DNA of 64,000 nt from Arthrobacter sunyaminii. GTDB lineage: Bacteria > Actinomycetota > Actinomycetes > Actinomycetales > Micrococcaceae. The position numbers were made by a program, and so were the translations under genes. Below, one piece after another: positions 2,436 through 61,690 of this stretch (position 1 is the first letter of the stretch; each line of letters starts with the position of its first letter). The stretch covers positions 3,038,001 to 3,102,000 of the forward strand of contig NZ_CP076456.1 of assembly GCF_018866305.1 (NCBI RefSeq), read 5' to 3'. The notes under the pieces were generated by a model. That model did no database searches. It worked only from the letters and a program-made list of their open reading frames with translations, and was not told the origin of the DNA.

Positions 2436-3284
2436 CTACGGCCGGACGACGGCGGTCCCGGTTGCCAGGGACTCTATCTTGTCCAGCACCTCCGGGTCCG
2501 TAGTGAACTCCCCGAGCAGGTTGGGTTTGCCGGTCCCGTGGTAGTCGCTGGATCCGGTGACCAGCAGCGAGTGCTCCGCTGCCAGGCTGCGCAGCCACGC
2601 CCGGCCTTCCTCCGGGTTGTCGCGGTGATCCGCTTCCACACCCAGCAGCCCGGCGTCGATCATTTCGCGGAAAGTTTCTTCGCCCACCACCCGTCCGCGG
2701 GAGGACGCCACCGGGTGGGCAAACACGGGCACTCCCCCGGCCGCGCGGATCAGCTCGACGGCGTGGGCCGGGTCCGGCGCATAATGCGCCACAAAGTAGC
2801 GCGAGCGTGCCGTCAGGATGCCGGAGAAGGCAGCCGAGCGGTTGGGCACCACTCCGGCGGCCACGAGCGCATCAGCGATATGCGGCCGCCCGATGGTCGC
2901 CCCCGGAGCAACATGGCGCTGTACCAGGTCCCAGTCGATGGGGAAGTCTTCCGCCAGCCGCTGGACCATCATTTCCGCCCGTGACACCCGTGCGGTCCTG
3001 GACCTGGCGATTTCCGCCAACAGTTCCGGGTTCGCCGGATCATGCAGGTAGGACAGCACGTGAACGCTGATCCCTTCGCTGCTCCGGCAGGAAACTTCCA
3101 TCCCGGGCACCAGGATCAGGCCCTCCTTACGTGCGGCCTGCATTGCCTCTGTCCACCCGGAGGTGGAGTCATGGTCGGTCAGGGCCACCGCGTCCAGCCC
3201 TGCCTCTTTCGCCGAACGCATCACCTCCGCCGGCGGCTGCGTTCCGTCGGAGACTGTGGAGTGCGTGTGCAGGTCGATTCTCAC
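2436..3284 (-). CDS. PHP-domain metal-dependent phosphoesterase (YciV/RNase AM-like)
   Basis: A 282-residue PHP-family protein. The N-terminal DLHTHSTVSDG supplies the first metal-binding HxH motif, and further conserved elements are ALTDHDS, GMEVS, GRPHIADALV, VFAHP and the C-terminal GSSDYHG. Family members related to E. coli YciV hydrolyse 3',5'-nucleoside bisphosphates and trim RNA 5' ends; that activity is inferred by family only. It is convergent with the methyltransferase, whose stop lies 2 bases away. The start is GTG at 3284. It is preceded by TACATT at -12 to -7, consistent with a leaderless transcript. Confidence 0.9.
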   Translation of the reverse strand: MRIDLHTHSTVSDGTQPPAEVMRSAKEAGLDAVALTDHDSTSGWTEAMQAARKEGLILVPGMEVSCRSSEGISVHVLSYLHDPANPELLAEIARSRTARVSRAEMMVQRLAEDFPIDWDLVQRHVAPGATIGRPHIADALVAAGVVPNRSAAFSGILTARSRYFVAHYAPDPAHAVELIRAAGGVPVFAHPVASSRGRVVGEETFREMIDAGLLGVEADHRDNPEEGRAWLRSLAAEHSLLVTGSSDYHGTGKPNLLGEFTTDPEVLDKIESLATGTAVVRP

Positions 3285-3290
3285 CCCATC

Positions 3291-3296
3291 AATGTA
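3291..3296 (-). promoter_or_regulatory. -10 element, leaderless promoter of the PHP gene
   Basis: TACATT on the minus strand, exactly -12 to -7 from the GTG start at 3284; no Shine-Dalgarno in between. No convincing -35 box seen. Confidence 0.5.
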
Positions 3297-3387
3297 CTTG
3301 CTTCAGGCCCTTGCGGGATTGCACGCTGCCGCAGGAAGCTTTTGCGCATGTTTGGCCGCCCCGTCCGCACAGTGAGACCATGGAAGG

Positions 3388-4980
3388 GTGACTACTGATG
3401 CGAATCCAATGACCACCGCCGACACGTCGGGTCTCGGGGAGTTGTCCGAAGGGCAGCCCTTGGATGACCGCGTAAACAACCGCTCCCAGAAACCGTCCAA
3501 CGAGGCCTACAAGGCCTTCATGGCAACCGGCTGGGCCGAGGACGACGCCGAGCTTCCCGCGCGCGCAGAAGTTGCCCCCTACGCCGCCCAGCGCCGTCGT
3601 GCCCTGTCCGAGCGGTTCCCGGGTGAGCGCCTCGTCATCCCCGCCGGCCCGCTCAAGGTCCGGTCCAATGACACCGACTACCGTTTCCGCCCGCACTCCG
3701 GCTTTGCGCACCTGACTGGCCTTGGCCTGGACCGGGAACCCGACGCCGTGCTCATCATGGAGCCGGTCGAACCGGGAACCGGCGACGACGGCGGCAACCA
3801 CACTGCCGTCCTCTACTTCCGTCCGCTCGCCGGCACGGACAGCGAAGAGTTCTACTCCAACGCCCGCTACGGCGCGTTCTGGATCGGCTCACGGCTGGGC
3901 CTGGAACAGGTCAGCGCCCTGCTGGACCTGCCCACCCGCCACCTGGACGAGGCTGAAACAGCCATCACCTCCAACGTCGGCGATCCGCAGTTCGGCGGCA
4001 TCTCCGTGCGCCTGCTGCGCAAAGTCGATGAGATGGTGGATGCGCTGGTGGACACCGTCCGCTACAACACCGCCATGGATCCCGAAAACGTTGACCTCAG
4101 CGCGCTTGACGCCCTGGACGGCGAGCTGACCGAGGCTCTGTCCGAACTGCGTTTGATCAAGGACGCGTGGGAAGTGAAGCAGATGGAAGCCGCCGTAGCG
4201 GCGACGGTCAACGGCTTCACCGAGGTCGTCAAGGCCCTCCCCCGCGCCATCGCCCACCCTCGCGGGGAGCGCGTAGTGGAGGGTGCATTCTTCTCCCGTG
4301 CCCGTGAAGAGGGCAATGACCTCGGCTACGACACCATTGCCGCGGCCGGCAACAACGCCACCGTGCTGCACTGGATCCGCAACAACGGCACCGTCAACGC
4401 CGGCGAGCTCCTGCTCCTCGACGCCGGAGTGGAAGCCGACAGCCTCTACACCGCCGATATCACGCGCACCGTTCCGGTCAACGGCACCTACTCAGAGGTG
4501 CAGCGCAAGATCTACCAGGCCGTCCTCGATGCCGCCGATGCAGGCTTTGCCGCCGCCAAGCCCGGCGCCAAGTTCCGCGACGTGCACCAGGCTGCCGTCA
4601 AGGTTCTGGCCGAGCGGCTGGCCGACTGGGGCCTCCTGCCGGTCTCCCTGGAGGAAGCCCTCTCGGACAACGGCCAGCAGCACCGCCGGTGGATGCCGCA
4701 CGGCACCAGCCACCACCTCGGTCTCGACGTTCACGACTGCGCCCAGGCCCGCAAGGAGCTTTACCTGGACGGCATCATCACCGAGGGAATGGTGTTCACC
4801 ATCGAACCGGGCCTGTACTTCAAGAACGAGGACCTTTCCGTTCCCGAGGAATACCGGGGCATCGGTGTGCGCATTGAGGATGACATCCTCATCACCGCCG
4901 ACGGTCCGGTGAACCTCAGCGCCGCTCTGCCGCGCAATCCGGAAGATGTGGAAGCCTGGATGGCTGGACTCGCCGAGTAA
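3388..4980 (+). CDS. pepP: Xaa-Pro aminopeptidase (aminopeptidase P)
   Basis: M24B metallopeptidase of 530 residues that removes N-terminal residues preceding proline. The N-terminal AMP_N domain (about residues 50-190) is followed by the pita-bread catalytic domain, with metal ligands visible in LLLDAGVE (Asp), YTADITRT (Asp), HGTSHHLGLDVHD (His), TIEPGLY (Glu) and GVRIEDD (Glu). The start is GTG 3388 (MTTDANPMTTAD); ATG 3409 is an in-frame alternative. A degenerate GACCAT lies at -12 to -7 of the GTG, which favours the upstream start. It is divergent from the PHP gene and ends just before a very long terminator stem. Confidence 0.95.
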   Translation: MTTDANPMTTADTSGLGELSEGQPLDDRVNNRSQKPSNEAYKAFMATGWAEDDAELPARAEVAPYAAQRRRALSERFPGERLVIPAGPLKVRSNDTDYRFRPHSGFAHLTGLGLDREPDAVLIMEPVEPGTGDDGGNHTAVLYFRPLAGTDSEEFYSNARYGAFWIGSRLGLEQVSALLDLPTRHLDEAETAITSNVGDPQFGGISVRLLRKVDEMVDALVDTVRYNTAMDPENVDLSALDALDGELTEALSELRLIKDAWEVKQMEAAVAATVNGFTEVVKALPRAIAHPRGERVVEGAFFSRAREEGNDLGYDTIAAAGNNATVLHWIRNNGTVNAGELLLLDAGVEADSLYTADITRTVPVNGTYSEVQRKIYQAVLDAADAGFAAAKPGAKFRDVHQAAVKVLAERLADWGLLPVSLEEALSDNGQQHRRWMPHGTSHHLGLDVHDCAQARKELYLDGIITEGMVFTIEPGLYFKNEDLSVPEEYRGIGVRIEDDILITADGPVNLSAALPRNPEDVEAWMAGLAE

Positions 4981-4998
4981 CTGACGGTGTCCTGACAG

Positions 4999-5058
4999 AA
5001 GACTAAACAGCGGAAGGCTCCGCACCCTTGGGTGCGGAGCCTTCCGCTGTTTAGTCTT
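4999..5058. terminator. Bidirectional terminator, perfect 29-bp stem
   Basis: Bases 4999-5027 are the exact reverse complement of 5030-5058, with only 2 bases between them; A/T-rich ends (AAGACTAAAC / GTTTAGTCTT) give U-tracts in both directions. It separates the convergent pepP and the stress-protein-like gene, and the last base of the right arm is the first base of the latter's stop codon. Confidence 0.9.
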
Positions 5059-6100: not shown

Positions 6101-6106
6101 TAGCCT
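6101..6106 (+). promoter_or_regulatory. -10 element, leaderless promoter of the MgtE_N-CBS gene
   Basis: TAGCCT exactly -12 to -7 from GTG 6113, with no ribosome-binding site. Confidence 0.55.
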
Positions 6107-6112: not shown

Positions 6113-7399
6113 GTGAGCAAAAATCCTACCCGCGTCTTCATCGCACGCCTGCTCGGCCTCGACGTATTCGACCCCCTGGGTGACCGTCTGGGCCGCCTTC
6201 GCGACGCCGTCGTGCTGGACCGCGGGCCCGGGCGTCCTCCGCAGGCCGTAGGCATTGTGGTGGAGGTGCCGGGCAAGAAGCGCGTCTTTGTGCCGCTGAC
6301 CCGCATCACCTCCATGGATCCAAGCCAGATCATCTGCACCGGACTGGTCAACCTGCGCCGTTTCGAACAGCGCGGCGCGGAGATGCTGGTGGTGGGAGAG
6401 CTCTTCGACCGCAAGGTCACGCTGCGGGACGGAAGCGGCGAAGCCACCATTGAAGACATTGCCATTGAGCAGAACCGTGCCGGCGACTGGCACGTGTCCA
6501 ACCTCTTCGTCCGCCGCAGCGGTCCGGAATCCCGCCTGCGCCCCCTGCGCAGGCGCGGTGAACAGATGATCGTGGACTGGAAGGACATCATCCACTGGGA
6601 CACCTCCGGCCCCCAGGCCGCCACCTCCTTCGTGGCCCAGAATGATGACCTGAAGGCTGCCGACTTCGCCGATGCCCTGCATGAGATGACCGGCAAGCGC
6701 CGGATTGAAGTGGCCAGCGAACTCCAGGACGAGCGCCTTGCGGATGTCCTGCAGGAACTTCCTGACGACGACCAGGTCCAGATCCTGCAGTCCCTGGATG
6801 TGGAGCGCGCTGCCGACGTCCTGGAGGAAATGGACCCCGACGACGCCGCTGACCTGCTCAACGAACTTCCGGAGGACCAGAAGGAAGAGCTCCTGCAGCT
6901 GATGGAACCCGAGGACGCCCGCGATGTGCGGCGGCTGCTGAACTACGAGGAAGACACCGCCGGTTCCCTGATGACCCCGGTTCCCGTCATCCTGCCGCCG
7001 GAGGCTACGGTTGCCGAAGCGCTGGCCCATGTGCGCCGCGAGGAGCTGACCCCGGCCCTGGCTTCCTCGATTTACGTGTGCCGCCCTCCCCTGGAAACAC
7101 CCACGGGACGGTACCTCGGTGTGGTGCACATCCAGCAGCTGCTGCGTTCGGCTCCCCCGGAGGCGCTGGGGAATATCCTTGATACGGACTTGGAGCCGGT
7201 CCGGGACTACGCCAGCATCAGCGAAGTGTCCCGGATGCTCGCCACCTACAACCTCAATTCATTGCCTGTCGTCAATGACGCCGGCCGTCTGGTGGGGGCG
7301 GTGACCGTGGATGACGTCCTGGACCACCTGCTTCCGGACGACTGGCGTGCCTCCGACGACGCACCAACCGATGTGAAGCAGGGAAGGACCCATGGCTGA
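6113..7399 (+). CDS. MgtE N-terminal domain / CBS-pair protein (no transport domain)
   Basis: A 428-residue soluble protein. The first 90 or so residues (ARLLGLDVFDPLGDRLG) look like a PRC-barrel-type domain; a region of helical repeats (DVLQELPDDDQVQIL, DVLEEMDPDDAADLL) at about 190-280 is the MgtE_N superhelix; and two CBS motifs occupy about 290-415. The membrane domain of true MgtE magnesium transporters is absent, so this is probably a Mg2+- or nucleotide-sensing regulator rather than a channel. The only start is GTG 6113, since ATG 6111 hits an immediate stop. It overlaps the downstream DUF1003 gene by 8 bases, indicating translational coupling. The same pair is present, from memory, in mycobacteria (Rv1231c-Rv1232c). 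Confidence 0.88.
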   Translation: MSKNPTRVFIARLLGLDVFDPLGDRLGRLRDAVVLDRGPGRPPQAVGIVVEVPGKKRVFVPLTRITSMDPSQIICTGLVNLRRFEQRGAEMLVVGELFDRKVTLRDGSGEATIEDIAIEQNRAGDWHVSNLFVRRSGPESRLRPLRRRGEQMIVDWKDIIHWDTSGPQAATSFVAQNDDLKAADFADALHEMTGKRRIEVASELQDERLADVLQELPDDDQVQILQSLDVERAADVLEEMDPDDAADLLNELPEDQKEELLQLMEPEDARDVRRLLNYEEDTAGSLMTPVPVILPPEATVAEALAHVRREELTPALASSIYVCRPPLETPTGRYLGVVHIQQLLRSAPPEALGNILDTDLEPVRDYASISEVSRMLATYNLNSLPVVNDAGRLVGAVTVDDVLDHLLPDDWRASDDAPTDVKQGRTHG

Positions 7400-9191: not shown

Positions 9192-9611
9192 TTAGGTGGC
9201 TTCGGTGTCAAAGGGCGCCCGGTCCCCGTCCTGCAGCCGCATGAGCGGCTTCACAGCCGGAGCTCCGCTGGGTGCAGCGGCGCGTCCGGGGGCACCTGCG
9301 GTTGCCTGCGGTGCAGCAGGCGCGGGCCGCGCGCTGACGGGTTTGACGGCGTCTTCGAAATCATCCAGAAGTGCTTCCTTGATGATCCGGCGCGGGTCAT
9401 ACTGCCGCGGATCAAGTTTGCGCCAGTCAACCTCGTCAATTTCGGGGCCAACCTCGTCCCGGAGCTGTTCCCGGGCACCAGTGGCCATCCGCCGCACTTC
9501 ACGGACCAAACGTGCAAGCTGGGAGGCGTATTCCGGCAGCCTTTCGGGACCCAGCACCGCTACGGCAAGGATCGCCAGGACGAGCAGCTCATAGCCGTTG
9601 ATTCCGATCAC
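9192..9611 (-). CDS. tatB: Sec-independent protein translocase subunit TatB
   Basis: A 139-residue protein with one N-terminal membrane helix (ELLVLAILAVAVLGPERLP), the GPERLP hinge diagnostic of TatA/B, an amphipathic helix (ARLVREVRRMATGAREQL) and the actinobacterial TatB element DEVDWRKLDPRQYDPRRI, followed by an Ala/Pro-rich tail. It works with TatC to receive twin-arginine precursors; tatC is not in the window. The start is GTG 9611, with TAGTCT at -12 to -7. In mycobacteria tatB lies next to htrA-rseA-sigE; here rseA follows directly and htrA is missing. Confidence 0.93.
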   Translation of the reverse strand: MIGINGYELLVLAILAVAVLGPERLPEYASQLARLVREVRRMATGAREQLRDEVGPEIDEVDWRKLDPRQYDPRRIIKEALLDDFEDAVKPVSARPAPAAPQATAGAPGRAAAPSGAPAVKPLMRLQDGDRAPFDTEAT

Positions 9612-9617
9612 CTGTGA

Positions 9618-9623
9618 AGACTA
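9618..9623 (-). promoter_or_regulatory. -10 element, leaderless promoter of tatB
   Basis: TAGTCT on the minus strand at exactly -12 to -7 from GTG 9611. It would give tatB its own promoter, separate from sigE-rseA. Confidence 0.5.
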
Positions 9624-9684
9624 CCTTTCCTGCTGCACCGCAAGCCAGTTCCCGTTCCGGACGGACGGTTTTTCTGCGATCCGG

Positions 9685-10620
9685 TCAATCCTGTCCCCCG
9701 GTGCCCGTCATGATGGTGAAACCGCTCTTGATGCGGTCCCATACCCCATGGGCCTTCTCCCGGGCATGAAGCGCCAGCCTCGATGACTCGGTGAGGGAAA
9801 TCTCGCTGACAGCTTCGTTCAGAACGTCCCCGGACGAAGACACCTCCACGGTGTAGGTAACCCGCTTCGAGGCCACAACAGCGCGATGGGGACGCTGGGG
9901 ATGAATCCATATCTGCGGGCGTCCGGGACGCTCTTCCTGCAGGATGAAACCTTCCTCCGTGACCGGTTTCCCGCTGACGCCGTCCACCACGGTCTCTTCG
10001 GACCAGGAAGCAGGGTGGGTCTCATACACGTTCACGCTGGTCCCCTCGCCTTCCAGGGTCATAATGACCGCCGGTTCCCCGTCAACCAGGGCAGCCCGGG
10101 CCCCTGCGACGGCCATTCCCGCCGATGCGAGCTCCGGGCAGGCCCACCCGCGGGACCGCAGTTCCGCGAGCTGTTCAGGAGCCAGCTGGTCATCCCGGCC
10201 TCCGCCGGTTACGTCGTTCCACACATCGGCCAGACCCGGCGCCGCCTGCTGCGTTACCGGAGGCTGGACCCAGCCTCCCAGCAGGTAGGCGGTGGAAAGG
10301 ACCAGCCCGACGGCGGCAGCCACCACTCCTGTGGCAGCTGCGAAGCGTCGTCGGCGGTTCCGGCTTGGTCCGGGAGCATGTGCATAATCCGCCGGTGTCC
10401 CGTCATCTGCGGGGTGTGCCGTGCGTTCGATGCGTTCGCGCAGCACGGGATCCGGTTCAGGAACCGCAAATGCGTTCAGGCGTGCCCGCTGCCGGCGTTC
10501 CCTGGCCGCTTCGGAACGACACCGGGCACACCGCGAAAGGTGTGCCTGCAGTACAGCGGCACGGGCCGGGCTGGCCTGACCGTCCAGGTATTCCTGCAAA
10601 AGGCGTTTGGGGTGTCGCAT
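9685..10620 (-). CDS. rseA: Zinc-binding (ZAS-type) anti-sigma factor, RseA-like
   Basis: A 311-residue membrane anti-sigma factor. The ZAS signature His27-x3-Cys31-x2-Cys34 is intact, one membrane span lies at about 93-116, and the remaining 195 residues would be extracytoplasmic. It starts 4 bases after the sigE stop, the classical sigma/anti-sigma arrangement, so it very likely sequesters SigE and releases it on oxidative or envelope stress. The extracytoplasmic part is long compared with mycobacterial RseA, which leaves room for a sensory or proteolysis-regulated domain. Confidence 0.9.
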   Translation of the reverse strand: MRHPKRLLQEYLDGQASPARAAVLQAHLSRCARCRSEAARERRQRARLNAFAVPEPDPVLRERIERTAHPADDGTPADYAHAPGPSRNRRRRFAAATGVVAAAVGLVLSTAYLLGGWVQPPVTQQAAPGLADVWNDVTGGGRDDQLAPEQLAELRSRGWACPELASAGMAVAGARAALVDGEPAVIMTLEGEGTSVNVYETHPASWSEETVVDGVSGKPVTEEGFILQEERPGRPQIWIHPQRPHRAVVASKRVTYTVEVSSSGDVLNEAVSEISLTESSRLALHAREKAHGVWDRIKSGFTIMTGTGGQD

Positions 10621-10624
10621 GAAA

Positions 10625-11230
10625 TCAGTTGGCGCCTGCCACGCGCGGCAGCTTGAGCCGCGGTCCGGTTTGGGGGCGGACCTGGGGATCGCGGTGCGCC
10701 AATTTCTCTTTCAGCATGGTGCGGCCGCGGTGAATCCGGGAGCGGACCGTTCCAAGCTTGACGCCCAGGGCACGGGCCACTTCGTCATAGGACAGGCCCT
10801 CAAGGTCGCACAGGACTACGGCAGCCCTGAAGTCGGGCGGAAGTTCATCCAGCGCTCGGGCAATATCCACGTCGAGGTTATTGAACTCAAAGCTTCGCTC
10901 GGGTCCGGGCCCGTTGCTGGGGAGCCGGCTCTCAGCCTCTTCGGTCATGCCGTCAAACCGAATGCGGCTCTTGCGCCTAGCCTGGTCCAGGAAGAGATTT
11001 GTGGTGATGCGGTGCAGCCACCCGTCCAGGGTTCCGGGCTGGAAATTCTCCAGGGAGCGGAAGACACGGACAAACACCTCTTGCGTGAGGTCTTCGGCGT
11101 CGTGCCGGTTGCCGGTCAGGCGGTAGGCCAGCCGGTACACTTTGGCTGAGTGCGCCTGCACTACTTCTTCCCAGGTGGGCCGCACCCACTCGGAGTCAGC
11201 CGGTCCGCCGGTTGCTGAGGTCGTGGACAT
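10625..11230 (-). CDS. sigE: ECF sigma factor SigE
   Basis: A 201-residue extracytoplasmic-function sigma factor. Region 2 ([21 protein letters not shown], truncated; [10 protein letters not shown]) and region 4 ([39 protein letters not shown]) are both complete; the latter is the helix-turn-helix for the -35 element. A strong AAGGAGG lies 7 bases before ATG 11230. The order sigE-rseA, with a divergent O-methyltransferase, matches the mycobacterial sigE locus, where SigE directs surface- and oxidative-stress genes. Confidence 0.93.
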
Positions 11231-12135: not shown

Positions 12136-13791
12136 TCAGGGCCGGAGGCCGGGCAGGTTCTGAAGGAAACTGATCAGCAGCCTGGCTCCGAATCCGGTGG
12201 CACCCTTGGCGATCTCATGCCTGTCCGCACGAGCGCTCATCGGCCCGGCAATGTCCAGATGCGCCCAGGGAACACCGTCAACGAACTTTTCGAGGAACAG
12301 CGCGGCCACAATTGCCCCGGCGCCGAACTTGAGCGCCGGCGGAGCCACGTGCGCCACGTCCGCTGTCACCGAGTCAAGAGCGTAGTCATATTCATGGACA
12401 AGGGGCAGCGGCCAGACGCGGTCCCCCGAAGCCTCCCCCGCTTCCTCCATTGCATCCAGCAGAAGCTCGGCATTGGAGAACACTGCACCGTACTGCTGAC
12501 CCAGACCCAGGGCTGCAGCTCCCGTCAGGGTGGCAATATCCACCAAAACGTCCGGGGCGAGGCCCGCTGCTGCATAGGCCAACGCGTCAGCGAGGACCAT
12601 CCTGCCCTCGGCGTCCGTGTTCCCGATCTCCACAGTCGTGCCGCCGTAAGTGGTGACAACGTCGCCGGGCCGGTAAGCGGAAGCACCGATGGCGTTCTCC
12701 GCCAGGGCCAGGATGCCCGTAACGCGGTGCGGCAGCTCCAGTTCGGCAGCGGCCTCCACAGCAGCCAGCACCACGGCGGCGCCGGCCATGTCCATCTTCA
12801 TGGACATCATTGCGTCACGGGGCTTCAGTGAGATGCCGCCGGAATCAAAAGTGATCCCCTTGCCAACCAAAACAACGTGTTCCGCGGTCTCGGCGGAGGG
12901 CTGGTAAGTAACCTGCACCAGGCGCGGCGGATTCGCAGAACCGGATCCAACCGCGGTCAGGCCGCCGAACCCCTGCCGCAGGAGTTCGGTCTCCTCCAGG
13001 ACGGTGATCTCCAGGCCGGCACGCTTCGCAACGGCACGGCTTTGTGCCGCCATCCAGGCGGGGGTTGCGACGTCGGGCGGAAGGTTGGTGAGATCCCTGG
13101 CCAGCCACACAGCCCGGGCGGTGATCTGTGCCTGGCGCTGCGCATCTGAATCCAGCCCGGTGACTTCCATGGCGCGGGCCATGGCAGGGCCGGCTGGCGT
13201 TTTTCCCTGGCGGGGTGCCTGGTATCCGCCCAGCAGGAAGCCTTCAAGAAAGGCCTGCTGCGAGGCGGGACCGAGTCCGTCAACCACCGCGGCGCGTATC
13301 CGGCGGGCACCTTTGGTGGCTCGGGCCAGTGCCGCTCCGGCACGGCGCAGGTTTTGGACGGACTCATCGCCGACACCTACAAAAATCAGTTTGGCCGGCA
13401 GGTCAGCGGCCCTGTCCGACGGCGGTTCCACCAGCAGTGTTTCACCGGCTTTGCCGGTAACGCCGGCCGCGGCCGCGCGGGCAGCTACGTCCACGCCGTA
13501 CCAGAGGGCTGTTTCCACAGCGCCCCGCCGGGGCTGCGGCGTGGGATGCAGCGACTCCTCGGAGTCCTCTCGGGGCGAGGAGTCAGGAGCCGCGGCCATG
13601 GCAACGGCCAGGACATCGACTTCTTCCTCAGGGGCGGGCCGCAGCCCGGTGCCGGCGGTGGGGGCACCGGCACCGGTCAGCAGCTGATCCACCGCTGTCA
13701 CCGCCGTCATGGCAATGCCAGACAAATCGGTCCCCGGAGCCTCCCCCGCGGAGGAGGTGGCCGGTGAGGATCCTTTGGGGAGTCGCTGCAT
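12136..13791 (-). CDS. pepA: Leucyl aminopeptidase (M17)
   Basis: A 551-residue M17 peptidase that removes N-terminal residues from peptides in the cytosol. The catalytic C-terminal domain shows GKGITFDSGGISLKP, KMDMAGAA, and the signature NTDAEGRMVLADAL containing metal and catalytic residues; the N-terminal macro-like domain fills residues 1-200. AGGAAG lies 8 bases before ATG 13791. Convergent with the O-methyltransferase (27 bases between stops, no obvious stem). Confidence 0.95.
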   Translation of the reverse strand: MQRLPKGSSPATSSAGEAPGTDLSGIAMTAVTAVDQLLTGAGAPTAGTGLRPAPEEEVDVLAVAMAAAPDSSPREDSEESLHPTPQPRRGAVETALWYGVDVAARAAAAGVTGKAGETLLVEPPSDRAADLPAKLIFVGVGDESVQNLRRAGAALARATKGARRIRAAVVDGLGPASQQAFLEGFLLGGYQAPRQGKTPAGPAMARAMEVTGLDSDAQRQAQITARAVWLARDLTNLPPDVATPAWMAAQSRAVAKRAGLEITVLEETELLRQGFGGLTAVGSGSANPPRLVQVTYQPSAETAEHVVLVGKGITFDSGGISLKPRDAMMSMKMDMAGAAVVLAAVEAAAELELPHRVTGILALAENAIGASAYRPGDVVTTYGGTTVEIGNTDAEGRMVLADALAYAAAGLAPDVLVDIATLTGAAALGLGQQYGAVFSNAELLLDAMEEAGEASGDRVWPLPLVHEYDYALDSVTADVAHVAPPALKFGAGAIVAALFLEKFVDGVPWAHLDIAGPMSARADRHEIAKGATGFGARLLISFLQNLPGLRP

Positions 13792-16378: not shown

Positions 16379-17149
16379 TTAGGGCGAGACGTGCCCGGCG
16401 CTGTCGGTAATCATCAGTTCCACGGCTTCCGCCGGATCATCCACGATATGGATCAGGGCGAGGTCCTTCTCGGAGATCATCCCCTCGGCCAGCAGCGTGC
16501 CCTTGACCCAGTCCATCAGGGGACCCCAGAAGTCCGTGCCGATCAGGACAATCGGAAAGGACGTCACCTTCTGCGTCTGGACCAGCGTCATGGCTTCGAA
16601 GAGCTCGTCCATGGTTCCGAAGCCGCCCGGCAGGACGATGAACCCCTGCGCGTACTTTACGAACATGGTCTTCCGCACGAAGAAATACCGGAAGTTGATT
16701 CCCAGATCCACCCAGTCGTTCAGACCGGTTTCGAAGGGAAGCTCAATGCCCAGGCCAACAGACAGGCCGTCCGCCTCGACCGCGCCCTTGTTCGCCGCCT
16801 CCATCGACCCCGGGCCGCCGCCCGTGATGACGGCCAGCCCCTCTGCCGCGAGCAGCCGCCCCACTTCCTCGCCGAGCTTGTAATAGGCAGACCCCGGCAT
16901 GCTGCGGGCGGAACCAAAGACGCTGACAGCCGGCCCAAGCTCCGAAAGGCTGCCGAATCCCTCCACAAATTCGCTCTGGATGCGCAGCACCCGCCACGGA
17001 TCAGTGTGCGTGAAGTGCGTCTGGTCCGAAGAGTCAAGCAGGTACTGGTCCGACTGCGGCGCACGGGCCTGCGCCCTGCGCAGTTCCACCGGTCCGCGTT
17101 TGCGGGGGCTGATATCCCGGCCCCGGGAGCTGTTGTCGCTGAATTCCAT
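16379..17149 (-). CDS. LOG family protein (TIGR00730, Rossmann fold)
   Basis: A 256-residue protein with GGGPGSMEAANKGA and LPGGFGTMDELFEA, the PGGxGTxxE motif of LOG-type nucleoside-5'-monophosphate phosphoribohydrolases that release cytokinin-like bases. The N-terminal 50 residues are extra and charged. The M. tuberculosis counterpart (Rv1205) has that activity, so the reaction is inferred by family. TACCCT lies at -12 to -7 of ATG 17149. Confidence 0.9.
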   Translation of the reverse strand: MEFSDNSSRGRDISPRKRGPVELRRAQARAPQSDQYLLDSSDQTHFTHTDPWRVLRIQSEFVEGFGSLSELGPAVSVFGSARSMPGSAYYKLGEEVGRLLAAEGLAVITGGGPGSMEAANKGAVEADGLSVGLGIELPFETGLNDWVDLGINFRYFFVRKTMFVKYAQGFIVLPGGFGTMDELFEAMTLVQTQKVTSFPIVLIGTDFWGPLMDWVKGTLLAEGMISEKDLALIHIVDDPAEAVELMITDSAGHVSP

Positions 17150-17155: not shown

Positions 17156-17161
17156 AGGGTA
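17156..17161 (-). promoter_or_regulatory. -10 element, leaderless promoter of the LOG gene
   Basis: TACCCT (minus strand) exactly -12 to -7 from ATG 17149; no Shine-Dalgarno. Confidence 0.5.
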
Positions 17162-17273: not shown

Positions 17274-17279
17274 TATCTT
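17274..17279 (+). promoter_or_regulatory. -10 element, leaderless promoter of gluABCD
   Basis: TATCTT exactly -12 to -7 from the gluA ATG at 17286; the bases between (CTTCTT) offer no ribosome-binding site. Confidence 0.55.
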
Positions 17280-17285: not shown

Positions 17286-18062
17286 ATGACCCGTGACACA
17301 ACCGAAGGCGCAACGCCTGATTCCGCCGCACCTCTTGTCTCACTCAAGAACGTCAACAAACACTTTGGCGACCTGCATGTTCTGCAGAACATCAACCTCA
17401 ATGTGGCCCGCGGTGAAGTGGTCGTAGTGATCGGCCCCTCCGGTTCCGGAAAATCGACGCTCTGCCGTGCCATCAACCGGCTGGAGACGATTGACGACGG
17501 CGAGATTGCCATCGACGGCAAGGTGCTGCCGGCCGAAGGAAAGGCACTGGCAAAACTCCGCGCCGACGTCGGCATGGTGTTCCAGTCCTTCAACCTGTTT
17601 GCCCACAAGACAATCCTCGACAACGTGTCCCTTGGCCCGGTCAAGGTCAAAGGCATGAAGAGTGCCGAGGCAAAGGCACTCTCGATGGAACTGCTGGAGC
17701 GGGTTGGCGTTGCCAACCAGGCCAATAAGCTGCCGGCGCAGCTTTCCGGCGGCCAGCAGCAGCGCGTGGCCATTGCCCGGGCCCTGGCCATGAAGCCCAA
17801 GGTCATGCTCTTTGACGAGCCCACCTCGGCCCTCGATCCCGAAATGATCAACGAGGTGCTGGACACCATGGTCAGCCTGGCCAAGGAGGGCATGACCATG
17901 ATCGTGGTAACCCACGAAATGGGATTCGCCCGCAAGGCCGCTGACCGCGTCATCTTCATGGCCGACGGACAGATTGTCGAAGAAGCCACCCCCGAAGAGT
18001 TCTTCACCAACCCGAAGAGCGACCGGGCCAAGGACTTCCTCGGCAAGATCCTTTCGCACTAG
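17286..18062 (+). CDS. gluA: Glutamate-type amino acid ABC importer, ATP-binding protein
   Basis: A 258-residue polar-amino-acid ATPase. Walker [11 protein letters not shown]-loop VFQSFNLF, signature LSGGQQQR, Walker [15 protein letters not shown] and the H-loop VVTHEMGFA are all intact. It heads the four-gene cluster ATPase, binding protein, two permeases, the order of Corynebacterium gluABCD. Glutamate is the likely substrate by synteny, with glutamine or aspartate as alternatives. The next gene starts 113 bases downstream after three short CAGTACCG repeats. Confidence 0.93.
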
Positions 18063-21870: not shown

Positions 21871-21876
21871 GTCTCC

Positions 21877-21882
21877 ACCCTA
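21877..21882 (-). promoter_or_regulatory. -10 element, leaderless promoter of dapE
   Basis: TAGGGT (minus strand) exactly -12 to -7 from ATG 21870. GGTGGAG nearby could also act as a weak ribosome-binding site. Confidence 0.45.
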
Positions 21883-21944
21883 CCGATCCCATGTCTGGGC
21901 GCCGGAAGCAACCCCTGCGCCCGCGTCCGGCGGACACCAATCGG

Positions 21945-21950
21945 TAGACT
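21945..21950 (+). promoter_or_regulatory. -10 element of dapD, near-leaderless
   Basis: TAGACT at -13 to -8 from ATG 21958, one base off the exact leaderless spacing; no Shine-Dalgarno. Confidence 0.4.
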
Positions 21951-53100: not shown

Positions 53101-55362
53101 ATGCAGTGCATGAACATCGCTCCGGAGGCCAGCGCGTACGGTGAGGCAGTCCGCGCAGTCCGGGAGGGCGCGCTCGATCCGGATGAGGCAGCCGAGCAGC
53201 TCATCAGCCAGATGACGGCAACGGAGCTTCTCGGGCTGCTCGACGGCGACTCCCCCGGGCTGCTGCTCCCGCTCATCCCGATGCTGCTGCGCCGGCGGCC
53301 GTTCGTGGCCGGGGCGGTCCCGCGGCTGGGCATCCCGGGAGTCCGGTTCAGCGACGGCGGCCGCGGCGTCGTCATCGGCGCCTCCACGGCCTTCCCCGTG
53401 ACCATGTCGCGGGCCGCAACCTGGGATCCGGCACTGGAGGAACGGGTCGGGCTCGCGGTGGGCCTGGAGACCAGGGCGCGGGGAGCAAACTACTCCGCCT
53501 CCGTCTGTGTGAACCTGCTTCGCCACCCCGCATGGGGCCGGGCGCAGGAGTGTTACGGGGAGGATCCGGTGCTCACCGCCCGGATGGGATCGGCGATGAC
53601 CCGGGGTGTGCGCGTGCACGCGATGGCGTGCGTGAAGCACTTCGCGCTGAACTCGATGGAGGACGAGCGCTTCGAGGTCGATGTGTCCGTCGACGAGCAC
53701 TCCCTGCACGAGGTGTACCTGCCGCATTTCAAGGCCGTTGTGGAAGCCGGTGCCGATTCCGTGATGAGTGCCTACAACCGGGTGCGGGGCGAGTACATGG
53801 ATGTCAATCACGCCCTGCTCACCGACGTGCTGCGGGATGAGTGGGGCTTCCGGGGATTCGTGACGAGCGACTGGGTTTTCGGCACCCACGACGCCGTCAC
53901 CAGCCTGCAGGCGGGGATGGATGTGGAGATGCCGCTGCGGCTGCTCCGGGCCCGTACTTTGCCTGCAGCGCTGCGGAACGGTCAGCTGGCGCGCGCGACT
54001 GTAGTGCAGTCCGCGCGCCGCATCCTGCGCACCACCGTGCTTCACGCCGCAACACGGGAGACGGCGGAGCCGGGCGCCGCCGTCATCGCCTCCCCGGCCC
54101 ACCGGGCGCTTGCCCGCCGGGTCGCCGCGGAATCGGTCGTGCTGCTGAAGAATGAAGTTCTTGGCGAAACACCGCTCCTGCCGCTGGCGCCCGCCATTTC
54201 CCATCTTGCGGTGATCGGACGACTAGCGGCCCGGGCAAACCTGGGCGATCACGGCTCCTCACGCGTCCGGCCTCCCTCCGCGGCTTCGGTGCTGCAGGGG
54301 CTGCGTGAGGCGCTCCCCCGGGTGCGCATCACGACCGACTCAGGACGGAACGAACGCGCCGCGGCCGCGCTGGCAGCCGCCGCAGACACGGCGATCGTCG
54401 TCGTCGGCCTGGACCAGCACGACGAGGGCGAGTCCGTTGTCACCGGAGGCGTTAACGTGGGCGTGCTCGGTCCGGCCTTCGGCTCGGGTGCCCTCAGTCG
54501 GGTCGTCACCGGTCTCGCGCATCTGGCCTCTCGATTCGTCCGAGGCGGCGACCGCAGCTCACTCGACCTGCGCCCCTCCGATGTGCGCCTCATCCGTGCC
54601 GTCGTGGCTGCGAACCCGCGGACCGTCGTCGTACTAATCGGCGGCAGCGCGATCCTCACGGAGGAATGGCGGGAACAGGTGCCCGCACTCGTCCTCGCCT
54701 GGTACGGCGGTATGGAGGGCGGCCGCGGGCTGGCGGACGTGCTGACCGGTGCTGCGGACCCCGGCGGGCGGCTGCCGTTTGTGCTGCCCACGGACCCCGC
54801 GCATCTGCCGCCCTTTGACCGCACGGCGAAGTCCGTGGTTTATGACGACTTGTGGGGTCAACGCCGGCTCGACGGCGAGGGACACGCGCCGGCGTTCCCG
54901 TTCGGGTTCGGCTTGAGCTACACCACGTTCGAACACCGGCTTCTCGAGCATCGCTTCGACGACACGGGCGGCTGGGCTGACGTGCTCGTCACGAACACCG
55001 GCGGTCGCCGGGGGTCCACTGTTGTTCAGGTCTACGCCGCAGACGTGTCAGTCCGCAGGCCGGTGGCTCAGCTCCTGGGCTTTCGCAAGGTGACGCTGCA
55101 GCCCGGCACAGAGACAACGGTGCGGGTTGCCCTGGATGCCGGGCCTACGCTGCAGCGCGATCCGGACACCCGGTGCTGGTCCCCCCGCGCCGGGGACTGG
55201 GCCCTGCTCGCCGGCCAGCACAGCCCGGTCAGCTGGGCGGACGCGGTCCGATTGCGGCGCCCTGCGGAACCGGCCGATGAGGACGGGATCTCTCAACACG
55301 AACGGCCAGCGTGTCATCCCCCCGCAGGATGGCGCGGAGCAGCCGCCGCTCCTCCCACCTGA
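53101..55362 (+). CDS. Glycoside hydrolase family 3, second copy
   Basis: A 753-residue GH3 without a signal peptide. GGRGVVIG, HPAWGRAQECYGEDP, CVKHFALNSME and the nucleophile Asp257 in GFVTSDWVFG are conserved; the sandwich domain and fibronectin-III domain (SYTTFEHRLL, VVQVYAADVS) follow. This motif set is that of bacterial beta-glucosidases. The last 40 or so residues after WADAVRLRR have no family resemblance and are encoded in the region that overlaps the convergent GT gene by 134 bases, so the original stop may have been lost. ATG 53110 is an alternative start. Confidence 0.92.
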   Translation: MQCMNIAPEASAYGEAVRAVREGALDPDEAAEQLISQMTATELLGLLDGDSPGLLLPLIPMLLRRRPFVAGAVPRLGIPGVRFSDGGRGVVIGASTAFPVTMSRAATWDPALEERVGLAVGLETRARGANYSASVCVNLLRHPAWGRAQECYGEDPVLTARMGSAMTRGVRVHAMACVKHFALNSMEDERFEVDVSVDEHSLHEVYLPHFKAVVEAGADSVMSAYNRVRGEYMDVNHALLTDVLRDEWGFRGFVTSDWVFGTHDAVTSLQAGMDVEMPLRLLRARTLPAALRNGQLARATVVQSARRILRTTVLHAATRETAEPGAAVIASPAHRALARRVAAESVVLLKNEVLGETPLLPLAPAISHLAVIGRLAARANLGDHGSSRVRPPSAASVLQGLREALPRVRITTDSGRNERAAAALAAAADTAIVVVGLDQHDEGESVVTGGVNVGVLGPAFGSGALSRVVTGLAHLASRFVRGGDRSSLDLRPSDVRLIRAVVAANPRTVVVLIGGSAILTEEWREQVPALVLAWYGGMEGGRGLADVLTGAADPGGRLPFVLPTDPAHLPPFDRTAKSVVYDDLWGQRRLDGEGHAPAFPFGFGLSYTTFEHRLLEHRFDDTGGWADVLVTNTGGRRGSTVVQVYAADVSVRRPVAQLLGFRKVTLQPGTETTVRVALDAGPTLQRDPDTRCWSPRAGDWALLAGQHSPVSWADAVRLRRPAEPADEDGISQHERPACHPPAGWRGAAAAPPT

Positions 55363-56719
55363 GCGACCTGAACGCTTGGCTGCGCCGCAGCACCAGGCTC
55401 CCGTCCGGGGTCCCGTACCGCTTCTGCAAATCCTCCAGCTCCTGGGCCTGCAGCAGGGCGACCGTGCTGCCCGTAGCCGAGTCGATCAACCGGACCAGCG
55501 CGGATGGTCCGCTCAGATCCGTCGCCACAACGCGGTCCTCACTGGCGGAGAGGATTGTCTTCTGCGCCGCGCGGGTTATCACCAGCGGACGGGACGGCCC
55601 GTCCAGCAGTCGGGACAGCACATCTGCCGCAGCTTCAGGTCGGCCCGTCCTCTGCGCCGCGGCCTGCATCTGCTGCAGGCGGCCAGGCTCGCGCAGCACC
55701 TCGTCGATCTTCCAGCCAATTGTCGCTGAAGTGTTGCAGCGGACCGCCGCCCCCTGTTCCAACAGGTAGTCGCCGTTGCGGACCTCCTGCCCCGGAATGG
55801 GGTTCACCATCACCATGGGCAGGCCGGCAGCCATGCACTCCGACACGGACAGCCCGCCGGGCTTGCCCACAAACAGGTCGGCGCGGCGCAGCAGCTGCGG
55901 CATCTCCGTGGTGAAGCCGAGCACGCGGTAGCGGTTCCCGGCGGGTGCCACCAGCTGCTCGATACGCTGCCGCAGGGCATCGTTTCGTCCGCACACAACC
56001 GTCGCCGTGAAGGGCGAGCGCATGTGCAGCGTCTGCCGCACGACCGAAACGGCGTAGTCACCGCCGGTCGCGCCCGCAGAGATCAGCAGCATCGGGGGCT
56101 CGGTTGCATCGCGGGAGGGCGCGGCCTTCAGCTGTGTGGCGATGGGAATCCCCGGAGCCGCAACCCGATCGGAAGGCAGGCCAAGCGCCATCAGTTCCAC
56201 CCTCCCCTCCTCCCGGGCCAGGAAAAGCGCATGGAACGCGCCGGTAAGGGACAGCCCCTGGAAGTCATAGTCCGTCGTTACGACGGCGGTCCTCGCGTTG
56301 GTCACGCCGCGAAGGAGCAGCGATGCCAGCAGCTGGGCGGGCAGGAAATGCGTGCACACGATCGCGGTCGGGCGGAACCGCTTAATCGCATCAATGACCG
56401 GAACGGAGTTCATCCGTGTCCAGGGGTCTATGGGGCCCCGGCGCCGGAAGGGACGGTCACTGATGTCGTAGCCCCAGTCAATCAGCCACGGCAAGCCCTC
56501 GACCAGGACGAAGTAACCCTTGTTCAGCAGTGCCCGGTAGAGCACGCTGCTGACCTGCAGCACGTCCAGAACCTGGACCTCTGCGACGTCGGCACGCGCG
56601 GCGCACGCCTGCTGCACCGCCGCTGCGGCACTGTTGTGCCCGGCGCCCACACCTGCGGACAAGATCAGTACGCGCTCCCCTGCAGCGGTCTTGGGGGTTC
56701 GTCCCGGCGTTTTGCGCAT
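55229..56719 (-). CDS. MGDG-synthase-like glycosyltransferase (GT28-type) with C-terminal extension
   Basis: A 496-residue GT-B enzyme. LILSAGVGAGHNSAAAAVQQ (20) is the signature of diacylglycerol glucosyl/galactosyltransferases and processive UgtP-like enzymes, and the donor-binding half shows FVGKPGGLSVSECMAAGLPM (20) and NPIPGQEVRN. It probably builds a glycolipid at the cytosolic membrane face. The final 110 residues (from about 385) are extra and not recognised. TAGCCT at -12 to -7 of ATG 56719. Its 3' end overlaps the convergent GH3 gene. Confidence 0.88.
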   Translation of the reverse strand: MRKTPGRTPKTAAGERVLILSAGVGAGHNSAAAAVQQACAARADVAEVQVLDVLQVSSVLYRALLNKGYFVLVEGLPWLIDWGYDISDRPFRRRGPIDPWTRMNSVPVIDAIKRFRPTAIVCTHFLPAQLLASLLLRGVTNARTAVVTTDYDFQGLSLTGAFHALFLAREEGRVELMALGLPSDRVAAPGIPIATQLKAAPSRDATEPPMLLISAGATGGDYAVSVVRQTLHMRSPFTATVVCGRNDALRQRIEQLVAPAGNRYRVLGFTTEMPQLLRRADLFVGKPGGLSVSECMAAGLPMVMVNPIPGQEVRNGDYLLEQGAAVRCNTSATIGWKIDEVLREPGRLQQMQAAAQRTGRPEAAADVLSRLLDGPSRPLVITRAAQKTILSASEDRVVATDLSGPSALVRLIDSATGSTVALLQAQELEDLQKRYGTPDGSLVLRRSQAFRSLRWEERRLLRAILRGDDTLAVRVERSRPHRPVPQGAAIGPRPPS

Positions 56720-56725: not shown

Positions 56726-56731
56726 AGGCTA
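56726..56731 (-). promoter_or_regulatory. -10 element, leaderless promoter of the GT gene
   Basis: TAGCCT (minus strand) exactly -12 to -7 from ATG 56719. Confidence 0.5.
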
Positions 56732-56783: not shown

Positions 56784-57341
56784 TCAGTCAGCCCGCCGGT
56801 AATGCATGGAAACTGCACCGTTGCTCATCGGTTCCGCCGAGATCAGCTCGAGGCGGCGTGTGCTGTCGAGAAGTCCCTCGTAGAGCGTGGGACCGTGGCC
56901 GGTGATCATGGGGTGCACCAGGAACCTGTATTCATCAATCAGGTCCAGCCGGTCAAGTCCCGCCGCAAGCCTGCCGCTGCCGAGGAGCACCCCCTCCGGG
57001 GTCCGGTCCTTGAGGTCCTGCACTGCGGTGCGAAGGTCACCTTCGATCCGGTGGCTGTTGTTCCATGGGAAGTCGCTGCGGGTTGAGGACACGACGTACT
57101 TCGGTTTGGCCTCCAGCGTGCGGGCCCAGTCGCGCACCGCTGCCGGCGCTGCGGCCTCCCCGCGGGCGACCGGCGGCCAGTAGCTCTCCATCATTTCGTA
57201 CGTGGTGCGCCCCCAGAGCATGGCGCCGGAATCGTTCAGGAGCCGGGTGTAATGGGTGTGCGTCTCGTCGTCGACGATGCCCTCCTGGTGGTCGATACAA
57301 CCGTCCAGGGTGACGTTGATGCTGAAAGTCAGGAGGCCCAT
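56784..57341 (-). CDS. Dihydrofolate reductase-like / RibD C-terminal-type reductase
   Basis: A 185-residue protein beginning MGLLTFSINVTLDGCID, with GRTTYEMM, VVSSTRSDFPW, GVLLGSGRLAAGLDRLDLID (20) and PMITGHGPTLYEG, the pattern of the YyaP/YwjB-like DHFR-superfamily reductases. The true substrate is unknown and it is unlikely to be the housekeeping folA. TAAAAT lies at -12 to -7 of ATG 57341. Confidence 0.88.
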   Translation of the reverse strand: MGLLTFSINVTLDGCIDHQEGIVDDETHTHYTRLLNDSGAMLWGRTTYEMMESYWPPVARGEAAAPAAVRDWARTLEAKPKYVVSSTRSDFPWNNSHRIEGDLRTAVQDLKDRTPEGVLLGSGRLAAGLDRLDLIDEYRFLVHPMITGHGPTLYEGLLDSTRRLELISAEPMSNGAVSMHYRRAD

Positions 57342-57347: not shown

Positions 57348-57353
57348 ATTTTA
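57348..57353 (-). promoter_or_regulatory. -10 element, leaderless promoter of the DHFR-like gene
   Basis: TAAAAT (minus strand) exactly -12 to -7 from ATG 57341. Confidence 0.55.
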
Positions 57354-59490: not shown

Positions 59491-60576
59491 CTAGACGTTG
59501 AAGCGGAACTCCACCACGTCGCCGTCGGCCATGACGTATTCCTTACCTTCAATGCGGACCTTGCCGCGCGACTTGGCCTCGGCCATGGAACCGGCTTCCA
59601 CTAGGTCATCGAAGGACACAACCTCGGCCTTGATGAAGCCTCGCTGGAAGTCGGTGTGGATGACACCGGCAGCCTGGGGCGCGGTGTCACCCTTGCGGAT
59701 GGTCCACGCACGGGTTTCCTTGGGACCGGCCGTCAGGTAGGTCTGCAGGCCCAGGGTGTGGAAGCCGACGCGGGCCAGCTTGTCCAGGCCGGACTCTTCC
59801 TGGCCGCTCATCTCCAGCATTTCGCGGGCTTCTTCTTCGTCCAGCTCCACCAGATCGGCTTCGAGCTTGGCATCAAGGAAGATGGCGTCCGCCGGGGCCA
59901 CCAGGGCGCGCAGTTCCTCCTGGCGCTCCGGGTTGCCAAGCACGGCGTCGTCGACGTTGAACACGTAGATGAAGGGCTTGGCGGTGAGCAGGCTCAGCTC
60001 CCGCAGGTGCTCCATCTCCAGCTTGTCCTTCTCCACGGAAGAGAAGATGGTGTCGCCGCGCTCCAGCACGGCCTGCGCGGCCTGCATGGCAGCCAGCTGC
60101 GCGGGCTCGCGCTTCTTGATCTTGACTTCCTTCTCGACCCGCGGAATCGCCTTTTCCAGCGTCTGCAGGTCGGCCAGGATCAGTTCGGTGTTGATGGTCT
60201 CCATGTCGGAGCGCGGATCCACCTTGCCGTCCACGTGGATGACATCGGGGTCATCGAACACGCGGATGACCTGGGCAATAGCCTCGGCTTCACGGATGTT
60301 GGCGAGGAACTGGTTGCCCAGCCCTTCACCTTCCGACGCGCCCTTCACGATGCCGGCAATGTCCACAAAGGACACGGTTGCCGGAAGGATGCGCGCGGAA
60401 CCGTGAATCTCGGCCAGCTTGGCCAGGCGCGGATCCGGAAGGGACACGACGCCGACATTCGGTTCGATGGTCGCGAACGGATAGTTCGCCGCCAGAACGT
60501 TGTTGCGGGTCAGCGCATTGAACAGGGTTGATTTGCCGACGTTGGGCAGGCCGACGATGCCAATAGTAAGAGCCAC
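59491..60576 (-). CDS. ychF: Redox-responsive ATPase YchF (Obg family)
   Basis: A 361-residue Obg-type P-loop ATPase that binds ribosomes and influences stress survival. GLPNVGKSTLFNAL (G1), DIAGIVKGASEGEGLGNQFL (20; G3), the degenerate NxxE G4 typical of YchF, and the C-terminal TGS domain are present. GTG start 60576 with TATGAT at -12 to -7. Adjacent to ispH as in mycobacteria. Confidence 0.96.
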   Translation of the reverse strand: MALTIGIVGLPNVGKSTLFNALTRNNVLAANYPFATIEPNVGVVSLPDPRLAKLAEIHGSARILPATVSFVDIAGIVKGASEGEGLGNQFLANIREAEAIAQVIRVFDDPDVIHVDGKVDPRSDMETINTELILADLQTLEKAIPRVEKEVKIKKREPAQLAAMQAAQAVLERGDTIFSSVEKDKLEMEHLRELSLLTAKPFIYVFNVDDAVLGNPERQEELRALVAPADAIFLDAKLEADLVELDEEEAREMLEMSGQEESGLDKLARVGFHTLGLQTYLTAGPKETRAWTIRKGDTAPQAAGVIHTDFQRGFIKAEVVSFDDLVEAGSMAEAKSRGKVRIEGKEYVMADGDVVEFRFNV

Positions 60577-60582
60577 GTTGCC

Positions 60583-60588
60583 ATCATA
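60583..60588 (-). promoter_or_regulatory. -10 element, leaderless promoter of ychF
   Basis: TATGAT (minus strand) exactly -12 to -7 from GTG 60576, close to the -10 consensus. Confidence 0.6.
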
Positions 60589-60598
60589 CCGGTGCCCG

Positions 60599-61678
60599 TC
60601 AGGCTCCGGCGCGCCGCCCGCCCAGACCGCGCGAGGTATCCCCCATCGCCTTCAGCGTGGCACGGATCTCCTTGGGCAGGGAGAAAATGATGTCCTCCTG
60701 CGCAGTGACCACTTCCTCTACGTCGCCGTAGCCGTACTCGGCCAGCAGGTGCAGGACGTCCTGGACCAGGTTTTCCGGCACGGATGCGCCGGAGGTCACA
60801 CCAACAGTGGCCACGCCCTCGAACCAGGTCTCATCAATCTCGTTGGCGAAGTCCACGCGGTGCGAGGCCTTGGCGCCGTATTCCAGCGCAACTTCCACCA
60901 GCCGCACGGAGTTGGAGGAGTTCGCGGAACCTACCACCAGCACCAGATCCGCTTCGGGAGCGATCTTCTTGATCGCAGCCTGCCGGTTGGAAGTGGCGTA
61001 GCAAATGTCGTCGCTGGGCGGATCCTGCAGCGTGGGGAACCGCTTGCGCAGCAGGTTCACCGTGTGCATGGCTTCATCCACGCTCAGTGTCGTCTGGGAC
61101 AGCCAGATGACCTTGTCCGGATCACGGACCACAACCTTGTCCACGTCTTCGGGACCGTTGACGATCTGCGTGTGCTCGGGTGCCTCGCCATAGGTGCCTT
61201 CAACTTCCTCGTGGCCGGCGTGTCCGATCAGCAGAATGTCAAAGTCGTCGCGCGCAAAACGCACCGCTTCCTTGTGGACCTTGGTCACCAGCGGGCAGGT
61301 GGCGTCGATGGTCTGCAGGTTCCGGTCCTTCGCGGACTGTACGACGGCGGGAGAGACGCCGTGTGCGGAGAAGATCAGGCGGGCGCCTTCCGGGACCTCG
61401 TCGGTTTCATCGACGAAGATGGCACCCTTCTCCTCCAGTGTCTGGACCACGTGGAGGTTGTGCACAATCTGCTTGCGGACGTAGACGGGCGGGCCATAGG
61501 CTTCCAGCGCCTTCTCCACGGCAATCACTGCGCGGTCGACGCCGGCGCAGTAGCCGCGCGGTGCGGCCAGCAGGACGCGGCGGGCGCCGGAGACGGGAGC
61601 GGCGGCGGATACCTCCTGCGGGCTGCGGCGCCTGCGCGGAACGGTGGGCATAGGCACGGAAACGGCAGTGCTGGTCAT
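60599..61678 (-). CDS. ispH: 4-hydroxy-3-methylbut-2-enyl diphosphate reductase
   Basis: A 359-residue [4Fe-4S] enzyme, last step of the MEP isoprenoid pathway. Cluster cysteines are in [23 protein letters not shown] and [17 protein letters not shown] and [11 protein letters not shown] bind substrate. TAGCAT lies at -12 to -7 of ATG 61678. Separated from ychF by only 22 bases, though ychF has its own promoter element. Confidence 0.96.
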
Positions 61679-61684
61679 GCCTCC

Positions 61685-61690
61685 ATGCTA
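61685..61690 (-). promoter_or_regulatory. -10 element, leaderless promoter of ispH
   Basis: TAGCAT (minus strand) exactly -12 to -7 from ATG 61678. GGAGG also lies 3-7 bases before the start, too close for normal use. Confidence 0.5.

Follow-up and report, generated by a model that had tools for sequence, protein, structure and literature searches.

TANNNT boxes set closely before ATG and GTG start codons point to leaderless transcription in an Arthrobacter genome

In a 64-kb window (the whole stretch of DNA analyzed here) of a 3.91-Mb single-contig Arthrobacter genome, a TANNNT hexamer occupies positions -12 to -7 of twelve named start codons, eight on the minus strand and four on the plus strand. 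The assignment to Arthrobacter agrees with ychF, whose nearest relative in a named record, at 94%, belongs to A. gandavensis. These hexamers had been pointed out in a reading made without database searches (the sequence-only reading) and are present as it gave them. Most of them are very probably -10 promoter elements that yield messenger RNAs (mRNAs) lacking a 5' leader, the best explanation for a box that we found at this spacing, enriched over other spacings, restricted to ATG and GTG starts, and conserved among relatives. The boxes are given below on this reading, together with one before dapD that was absent from the earlier list.

3291-3296, minus strand: TACATT, -10 box of the PHP-domain gene 2436-3284 (PF02811), GTG start.
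6101-6106, plus strand: TAGCCT, -10 box of the MgtE_N/CBS-domain gene 6113-7399 (Pfam), GTG start.
9618-9623, minus strand: TAGTCT, -10 box of the tatB-like gene 9192-9611, GTG start; NCBIfam Sec-independent translocase models score slightly under the cut-off for its product.
17156-17161, minus strand: TACCCT, -10 box of the LOG-like gene 16379-17149 (TIGR00730), ATG start.
17274-17279, plus strand: TATCTT, -10 box of the ABC-transporter ATPase gene 17286-18062 (PF00005), ATG start.
21877-21882, minus strand: TAGGGT, -10 box of dapE 20779-21870 (TIGR01900), ATG start.
21945-21950, plus strand: TAGACT at -13, -10 box of dapD 21958-22938 (TIGR03535), divergent from dapE.
23848-23853, plus strand: TACTCT, -10 box of the galE-like epimerase gene 23860-24876 (PF16363/PF01370), ATG start.
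28049-28054, plus strand: TACCAT, -10 box of the SH3_Rv0428c-domain gene 28061-28294 (PF24551), GTG start.
56726-56731, minus strand: TAGCCT, candidate -10 box of the glycosyltransferase gene 55229-56719 (monogalactosyldiacylglycerol-synthase type, PF06925), ATG start.
57348-57353, minus strand: TAAAAT, candidate -10 box of the RibD_C-domain gene 56784-57341 (PF01872), ATG start.
60583-60588, minus strand: TATGAT, -10 box of ychF 59491-60576 (PF06071), GTG start.
61685-61690, minus strand: TAGCAT, -10 box of ispH (LytB) 60599-61678 (PF02401), ATG start.

Such a set might arise by chance, or from starts chosen to fit the motif; the earlier reader did select by the motif, which partly caused the identical spacing, and boxes at -13 also occur in the genome. 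Nevertheless, a gene caller that scores starts on coding signal alone, ignoring upstream DNA, recovered 11 of the 12 starts with a dicodon model, the sole miss being ispH, placed at 61651 instead of 61678. (A codon-only model used earlier recovered 8 of the 12 and was discarded for choosing wrong strands, for example at dapE.) With the dicodon calls, 11 of 57 usable genes in the window have TANNNT at -12 and one, dapD, has it at -13, while the background over offsets -60 to -20 is a mean of 0.17 TANNNT per offset. Scaled from the background of the genome sample described below, 0.34 sites at -12 are expected for 58 genes, giving a Poisson probability of about 3e-15 for at least 12, ispH included. 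With the box also kept by orthologues, and counts made independently of genes peaking at 6-7 nucleotides (nt) before the start, chance or motif-led choice of starts is scarcely credible and is refuted for the set as a whole; for the genes starting at 57341 and 56719, chance is possible.

The enrichment extends across the genome. The sequence-only reading had suggested a scan of TANNNT over all offsets for a peak at -12, and this peak was found. A sample of the genome was formed from 40 further stretches of 20 kb each, 800 kb in all, in which 679 of the 703 called genes were usable. In this sample, TANNNT preceded 51 of the 679 genes at -12, 18 at -13 and 1 at -14, against a background of 3.95 per offset, so that boxes at -13 are about one third as common as those at -12. 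In an annotated 50-kb piece of Escherichia coli K-12 that served as control, none of the 47 genes had the box at -12 and one had it at -13, with a background of 1.07. The description of leaderless transcription in the window as dense holds insofar as boxes are in excess there (11/57 vs 51/679 at -12, p=0.005; 12/57 vs 69/679 at -12 or -13, p=0.024), but the density is just 2-3 times that of the sample, and this modest surplus comes from a window picked out for its boxes. Regional clustering was rejected as a special feature on the same ground, and single 20-kb stretches elsewhere reach 5 boxed genes of 21.

Counting TANNNT-Nk-ATG over the whole genome without gene calls gave 178, 427, 263, 193 and 181 occurrences for k of 5, 6, 7, 8 and 9, an excess of about 343 ATG sites when the chance level is taken as about 180. 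Scaled by the proportion of ATG starts among boxed genes, 64/81, this leads to an estimate of about 430 leaderless-type genes; the gene density of the sample implies roughly 3,400 genes in total, of which these would make up 12-13%. A plain count of this kind picks up the leaderless signal without any gene calls. Whole-genome counts of the GTG and TTG forms against the reversed pattern (GTG 304 vs 525, TTG 181 vs 477) carried no information, since the codon content of the reversed control is different.

The boxes are selective for the start codon that follows. In the sample, enrichment of the box at -12 before in-frame codons near starts was 12.8-fold for ATG and 4.3-fold for GTG, with no enrichment before TTG (0.6), CTG (0.5) or other codons (0.7). 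When window and sample were combined, TTG was the start of 0 of the 81 boxed genes (62 at -12 and 19 at -13, compared with 655 other genes), and the -12 class used ATG in 77% and GTG in 23% (48 and 14 of 62). A Shine-Dalgarno match of at least 5 was found before 4 of the 81 boxed genes and 224 of the 655 others; within the window, one of 12 boxed called genes, tatB, has such a match. The earlier claim that the box is gone in genes internal to operons fell short, as six of the twelve boxed genes lie within 86 nt of a same-strand neighbor, and absence of the box in that position is at most a tendency.

Conservation was followed by mapping orthologous starts in the corresponding stretches of 20 genomes, 18 of the same genus and two of the same order. 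Hits under 45% identity, alignments starting after residue 6 and mapped starts near the end of a stretch were excluded, and the box counts additionally exclude mapped first codons other than ATG, GTG or TTG. For nine of the 12 genes, 140 of the 142 mapped orthologues keep the box at -12 or -13; the figure for unboxed control genes is 5 of 206. By gene, it is present in 16/16 orthologues of 3284 (all at -12), in 19/19 of 6113 (13 at -12, 6 at -13) and in 13/13 of 28061, which supports the choice of GTG for these three starts made earlier; it is further present in 13/14 orthologues of the tatB-like gene, 14/14 of the LOG-like gene (12 at -12, 2 at -13), 16/17 of the ABC-transporter ATPase gene, 16/16 of dapE, whose start codon is ATG or GTG across the genus with the box unchanged, 18/18 of the galE-like gene (10 at -12, 8 at -13) and 15/15 of ispH (14 at -12, 1 at -13). 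The dapD box is present in all 8 orthologues whose mapped first codon is a start codon. The orthologues thus back nine of the twelve genes, as well as ychF with a shifted box (see below), and leave the gene at 57341 unsupported; for the glycosyltransferase at 56719, no orthologue was found in the stretches fetched from relatives.

The conserved positions are those of the motif itself. In an upstream identity profile that leaves out two of the genomes (G019 and G022), identity among orthologues is 0.87, 0.87, 0.86 and 0.94 at -12, -11, -8 and -7, and 0.30-0.65 over -40 to -19. T, A and the final T are kept, while letters three to five of the box differ. This pattern speaks against the hexamers being stop codons of neighboring genes, or a translational signal, instead of promoters, an idea suggested by the five of 12 boxes that start with TAG and the one that starts with TAA. 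The same-strand upstream genes end 22-86 nt away, outside the box, for which reason the TAG boxes were rejected as upstream stop codons, and the other six neighbors are divergent. We consider a non-promoter origin of this kind extremely improbable.

The same spacing peak is found across the class. In 79 stretches around ychF from the phylum, with ychF itself excluded, the box precedes 29 of 355 genes at -12 and 17 at -13 over a background of 1.6, and none of 16 TTG starts is boxed. Ten same-order genomes (one of the same family) gave 21 of 325 genes at -12 and 14 at -13, and ten more distant genomes gave 5 of 314 at -12 and 12 at -13. A split of the ychF-neighbor loci by order, aimed at the shift between -12 and -13, left too few genes to read (Mycobacteriales/Pseudonocardiales, 2 at -12 and 3 at -13 of 55). 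Gene-independent TANNNT-Nk-ATG counts summed over 79 class genomes are 6443, 17879, 16028, 9050 and 6335 for N5 to N9; N6 exceeds N5, N8 and N9 in 79/79 genomes, N7 does likewise in 73/79, and N6 is at least equal to N7 in 55/79. The ratio of N6 to N7 excess, each taken over the averaged N5 and N9 counts, is about 3 in our genome and 2.21 in its own family (2 genomes), 1.0-1.1 in families f13, f12, f47, f54 and f53, and 0.96-0.80 in f42, f55, f46, f62 and f49, with f65 and f63 above the own family. Base composition could contribute to these differences between families.

By analogy with other actinobacteria (Mycobacterium, Corynebacterium), our source for where transcription starts, which sigma factor acts and how translation begins, RNA polymerase carrying the housekeeping sigma factor would recognize TANNNT set 6-7 nt upstream of ATG or GTG. 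Transcription would then begin 7 or 8 nt past the box, with the opening A or G of the start codon as its first base, and ribosomes would start on the 5'-terminal AUG or GUG of an mRNA without a leader, with no need for a Shine-Dalgarno site. The spacer peak at 6-7 nt, the restriction to ATG and GTG, the scarcity of strong Shine-Dalgarno sites and the conservation in orthologues all support the leaderless interpretation of the earlier reading.

Leaderless mRNA may nonetheless be only part of the output of some of these genes, if transcription also arrives from upstream by read-through or from a second promoter. Six of the twelve genes lie closely behind a same-strand gene: the upstream gene is 22 nt away for the start at 60576, 36 for 23860, 46 for 57341, 64 for 56719 and 73 for 9611, and ispH at 61678 lies 86 nt behind a gene ending at 61765; the other six have divergent neighbors. 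Alternative starts are also described at some leaderless genes of M. tuberculosis (PMC3898074). Upstream transcription leaves the box itself unexplained and would supplement, rather than replace, a leaderless promoter. We regard such mixed output as a reasonable possibility, if somewhat doubtful.

Several results weigh against the leaderless reading. No -35 consensus was seen with the boxes: none of the positions from -46 to -15 was conspicuous in the -12 class (n=62), and TTGACA-like matches have no fixed spacing to the boxes. The -13 class (n=19) has some biased positions, but these are scattered and resemble small-sample noise. The RibD_C-domain gene at 57341 has the box in 0 of 3 mapped orthologues. 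The conservation counts are not independent, as the same-genus orthologues are kin. The N6 peak is just 1.4-1.5-fold in the small-genome families f59 and f65 and in family f43. Finally, in 78 actinobacterial orthologues of ychF (loci L022-L101, 78 of 80 used, two being without upstream DNA), the box lies at -14 in 57, at -15 in 13, at -13 in 3 and at -12 in 4, and the 70 of 78 boxes at -14 or -15 could leave a leader of a few nt.

This last point speaks for transcripts that start a few bases early at real -10 elements, so that many genes would carry a leader of 1-5 nt. Boxes at -13 are common as well (18/679 in the sample), and some authors call an mRNA leaderless if its start codon falls among the first few nt (PMC4633059, PMC4681348). 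Among the fetched relatives, the ychF box is present in 20/20, at -12 in 1 and at -14 or -15 in 19, and only the nearest of them (G002) shares the -12 register of the window species. On the other side, a polymerase that starts on the start codon despite a 7-nt spacer would have purines avoided at -1. When our sample and window, the phylum stretches and the ychF-neighbor loci are pooled, pyrimidines make up 52/62 of the -1 bases where the box is at -13, 82/117 where it is at -12 and 878/1546 in the remaining genes, a bias that fits initiation on the start codon, although the difference between the -13 and -12 classes is weak (p=0.048). Among ychF orthologues, a pyrimidine occupies this position in 73/78. 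The exclusion of TTG from boxed starts likewise argues against short leaders, and we judge them unlikely as a general account. The earlier assertion of an exact, identical spacing stands for the 12 named genes and does not extend further, and it came partly from selection, because the genome also uses -13, orthologues of galE (10 vs 8) and of gene 6113 (13 vs 6) alternate between -12 and -13, and ychF orthologues lie mostly at -14 or -15.

The divergent dapE and dapD promoters form a compact arrangement in relatives. In the window, 87 nt separate their starts (21870-21958), and the boxes lie at -12 for dapE and at -13 for dapD. The dapE start was mapped in 16 same-genus genomes. In 11 of these the two start codons are separated by exactly 33 nt, a length made up of two back-to-back boxes, the 8 nt between them and their spacers; the remaining five, the clade to which the window species belongs, have no such partner within 60 nt of the dapE start. 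Two further genomes (G008 and G009), read by eye, also have 33 nt, for 13 of 18 same-genus genomes. In the same-order genome G019 the gap is 36 nt, with boxes at -13 and -14. By eye, G022, G024 and G026 have boxes before both genes at a wider gap, and in G025 a box was seen before dapD only; the short stretches of G027 and G028 yielded no dapD. Across window and sample, 6 of 105 divergent pairs are boxed on both sides (odds ratio 3.85, p=0.03). In E. coli, bidirectional promoters share one -10, with starts mostly 18, but also 10 and 23, base pairs apart (PMC12825309). The compact dapE/dapD regions resemble them in that the opposite-strand promoters lie too close for two polymerases, which would be expected to exclude each other in the 33-nt region. 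In contrast to the E. coli promoters, dapE and dapD do not share a single -10 in these 13 of 18 genomes: each has its own box, with 8 nt between the boxes and 33 nt between the start codons.

Other features of the window were recorded alongside the boxes. Degenerate boxes claimed earlier before pepP (GACCAT, start 3388) and the YflT-like gene (CAGAAT, start 5951) do exist. The Peptidase_M17 gene 12136-13791 has TAGGAA in place of TANNNT, and 4 of its 9 mapped orthologues have TANNNT at -12 or -13, which may reflect loss or weakening of leaderless status in the clade of the window species. On the minus strand, positions 9192-11230 hold a sigE-like extracytoplasmic function sigma factor gene, a zinc-finger anti-sigma-like gene and the tatB-like gene in a row, and the leaderless-type box of the tatB-like gene sits inside this row. 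At 28016-28037, upstream of gene 28061, a block ATTATCTCCCAGCCGGG is kept in seven mapped same-genus orthologues; lying well upstream of the -10 box of 28061, it is perhaps part of the promoter of the divergent neighbor.

The pattern and its meaning are already published for Actinobacteria, from sequence in 2011 and from RNA sequencing and ribosome profiling in 2013-2015, and the Arthrobacter finding is an ordinary instance of a known phenomenon. TAnnnT about 10 base pairs upstream of the translation start was read as a leaderless signal in high-GC Actinobacteria (PMC3160421, 2011), where such TA-led genes make up about 20% of genes in 86 of 89 genomes; our estimated share of about 12-13% is lower. 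TANNNT lies 7-12 base pairs upstream of 73% of primary transcription starts in M. tuberculosis (PMC3898074), and in mycobacterial reporters a 5' ATG or GTG is necessary and sufficient, whereas CTG and TTG are not (PMC4633059). The Arthrobacter set shares with Mycobacterium and with C. glutamicum (PMC3890552) the TANNNT box and the use of AUG and GUG starts only, and its ATG:GTG ratio of 77%:23% is close to the 79% AUG and 21% GUG of leaderless mRNAs in C. glutamicum. Those sets are built on mapped 5' ends and ribosome profiling, whereas the present one is built from sequence. Deinococcus-Thermus, although another phylum, similarly has TANNNT directly upstream of open reading frames, with a spacing requirement and leaderless mRNA, and there it was tested with reporters (PMC12340547). 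Among the papers listed by a literature search on leaderless transcription in Arthrobacter, none had a title on Arthrobacter transcription starts, and the parts of PMC3160421 covered give no family-wise ratio between spacers of 6 and 7 nt.

Taken as -10 elements, the boxes support setting start codons of this genome by their position, including GTG at 3284, 6113 and 28061. More tentatively, and with slightly less than even confidence, we propose that the spacer is a lineage trait and that the 33-nt dapE/dapD region found in most of the genus consists of two mutually exclusive leaderless promoters acting as a built-in switch. The first part draws on the roughly 3:1 preference for 6 over 7 nt in our genome, set against several families that are even or favor 7, and on ychF, which keeps about two extra nt in most actinobacteria examined. 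If the spacer is such a trait, genome sequence alone would reveal how the polymerase of each lineage picks its start, and if the switch is real, the dapE/dapD region would alternate between two steps of lysine and cell-wall precursor synthesis.

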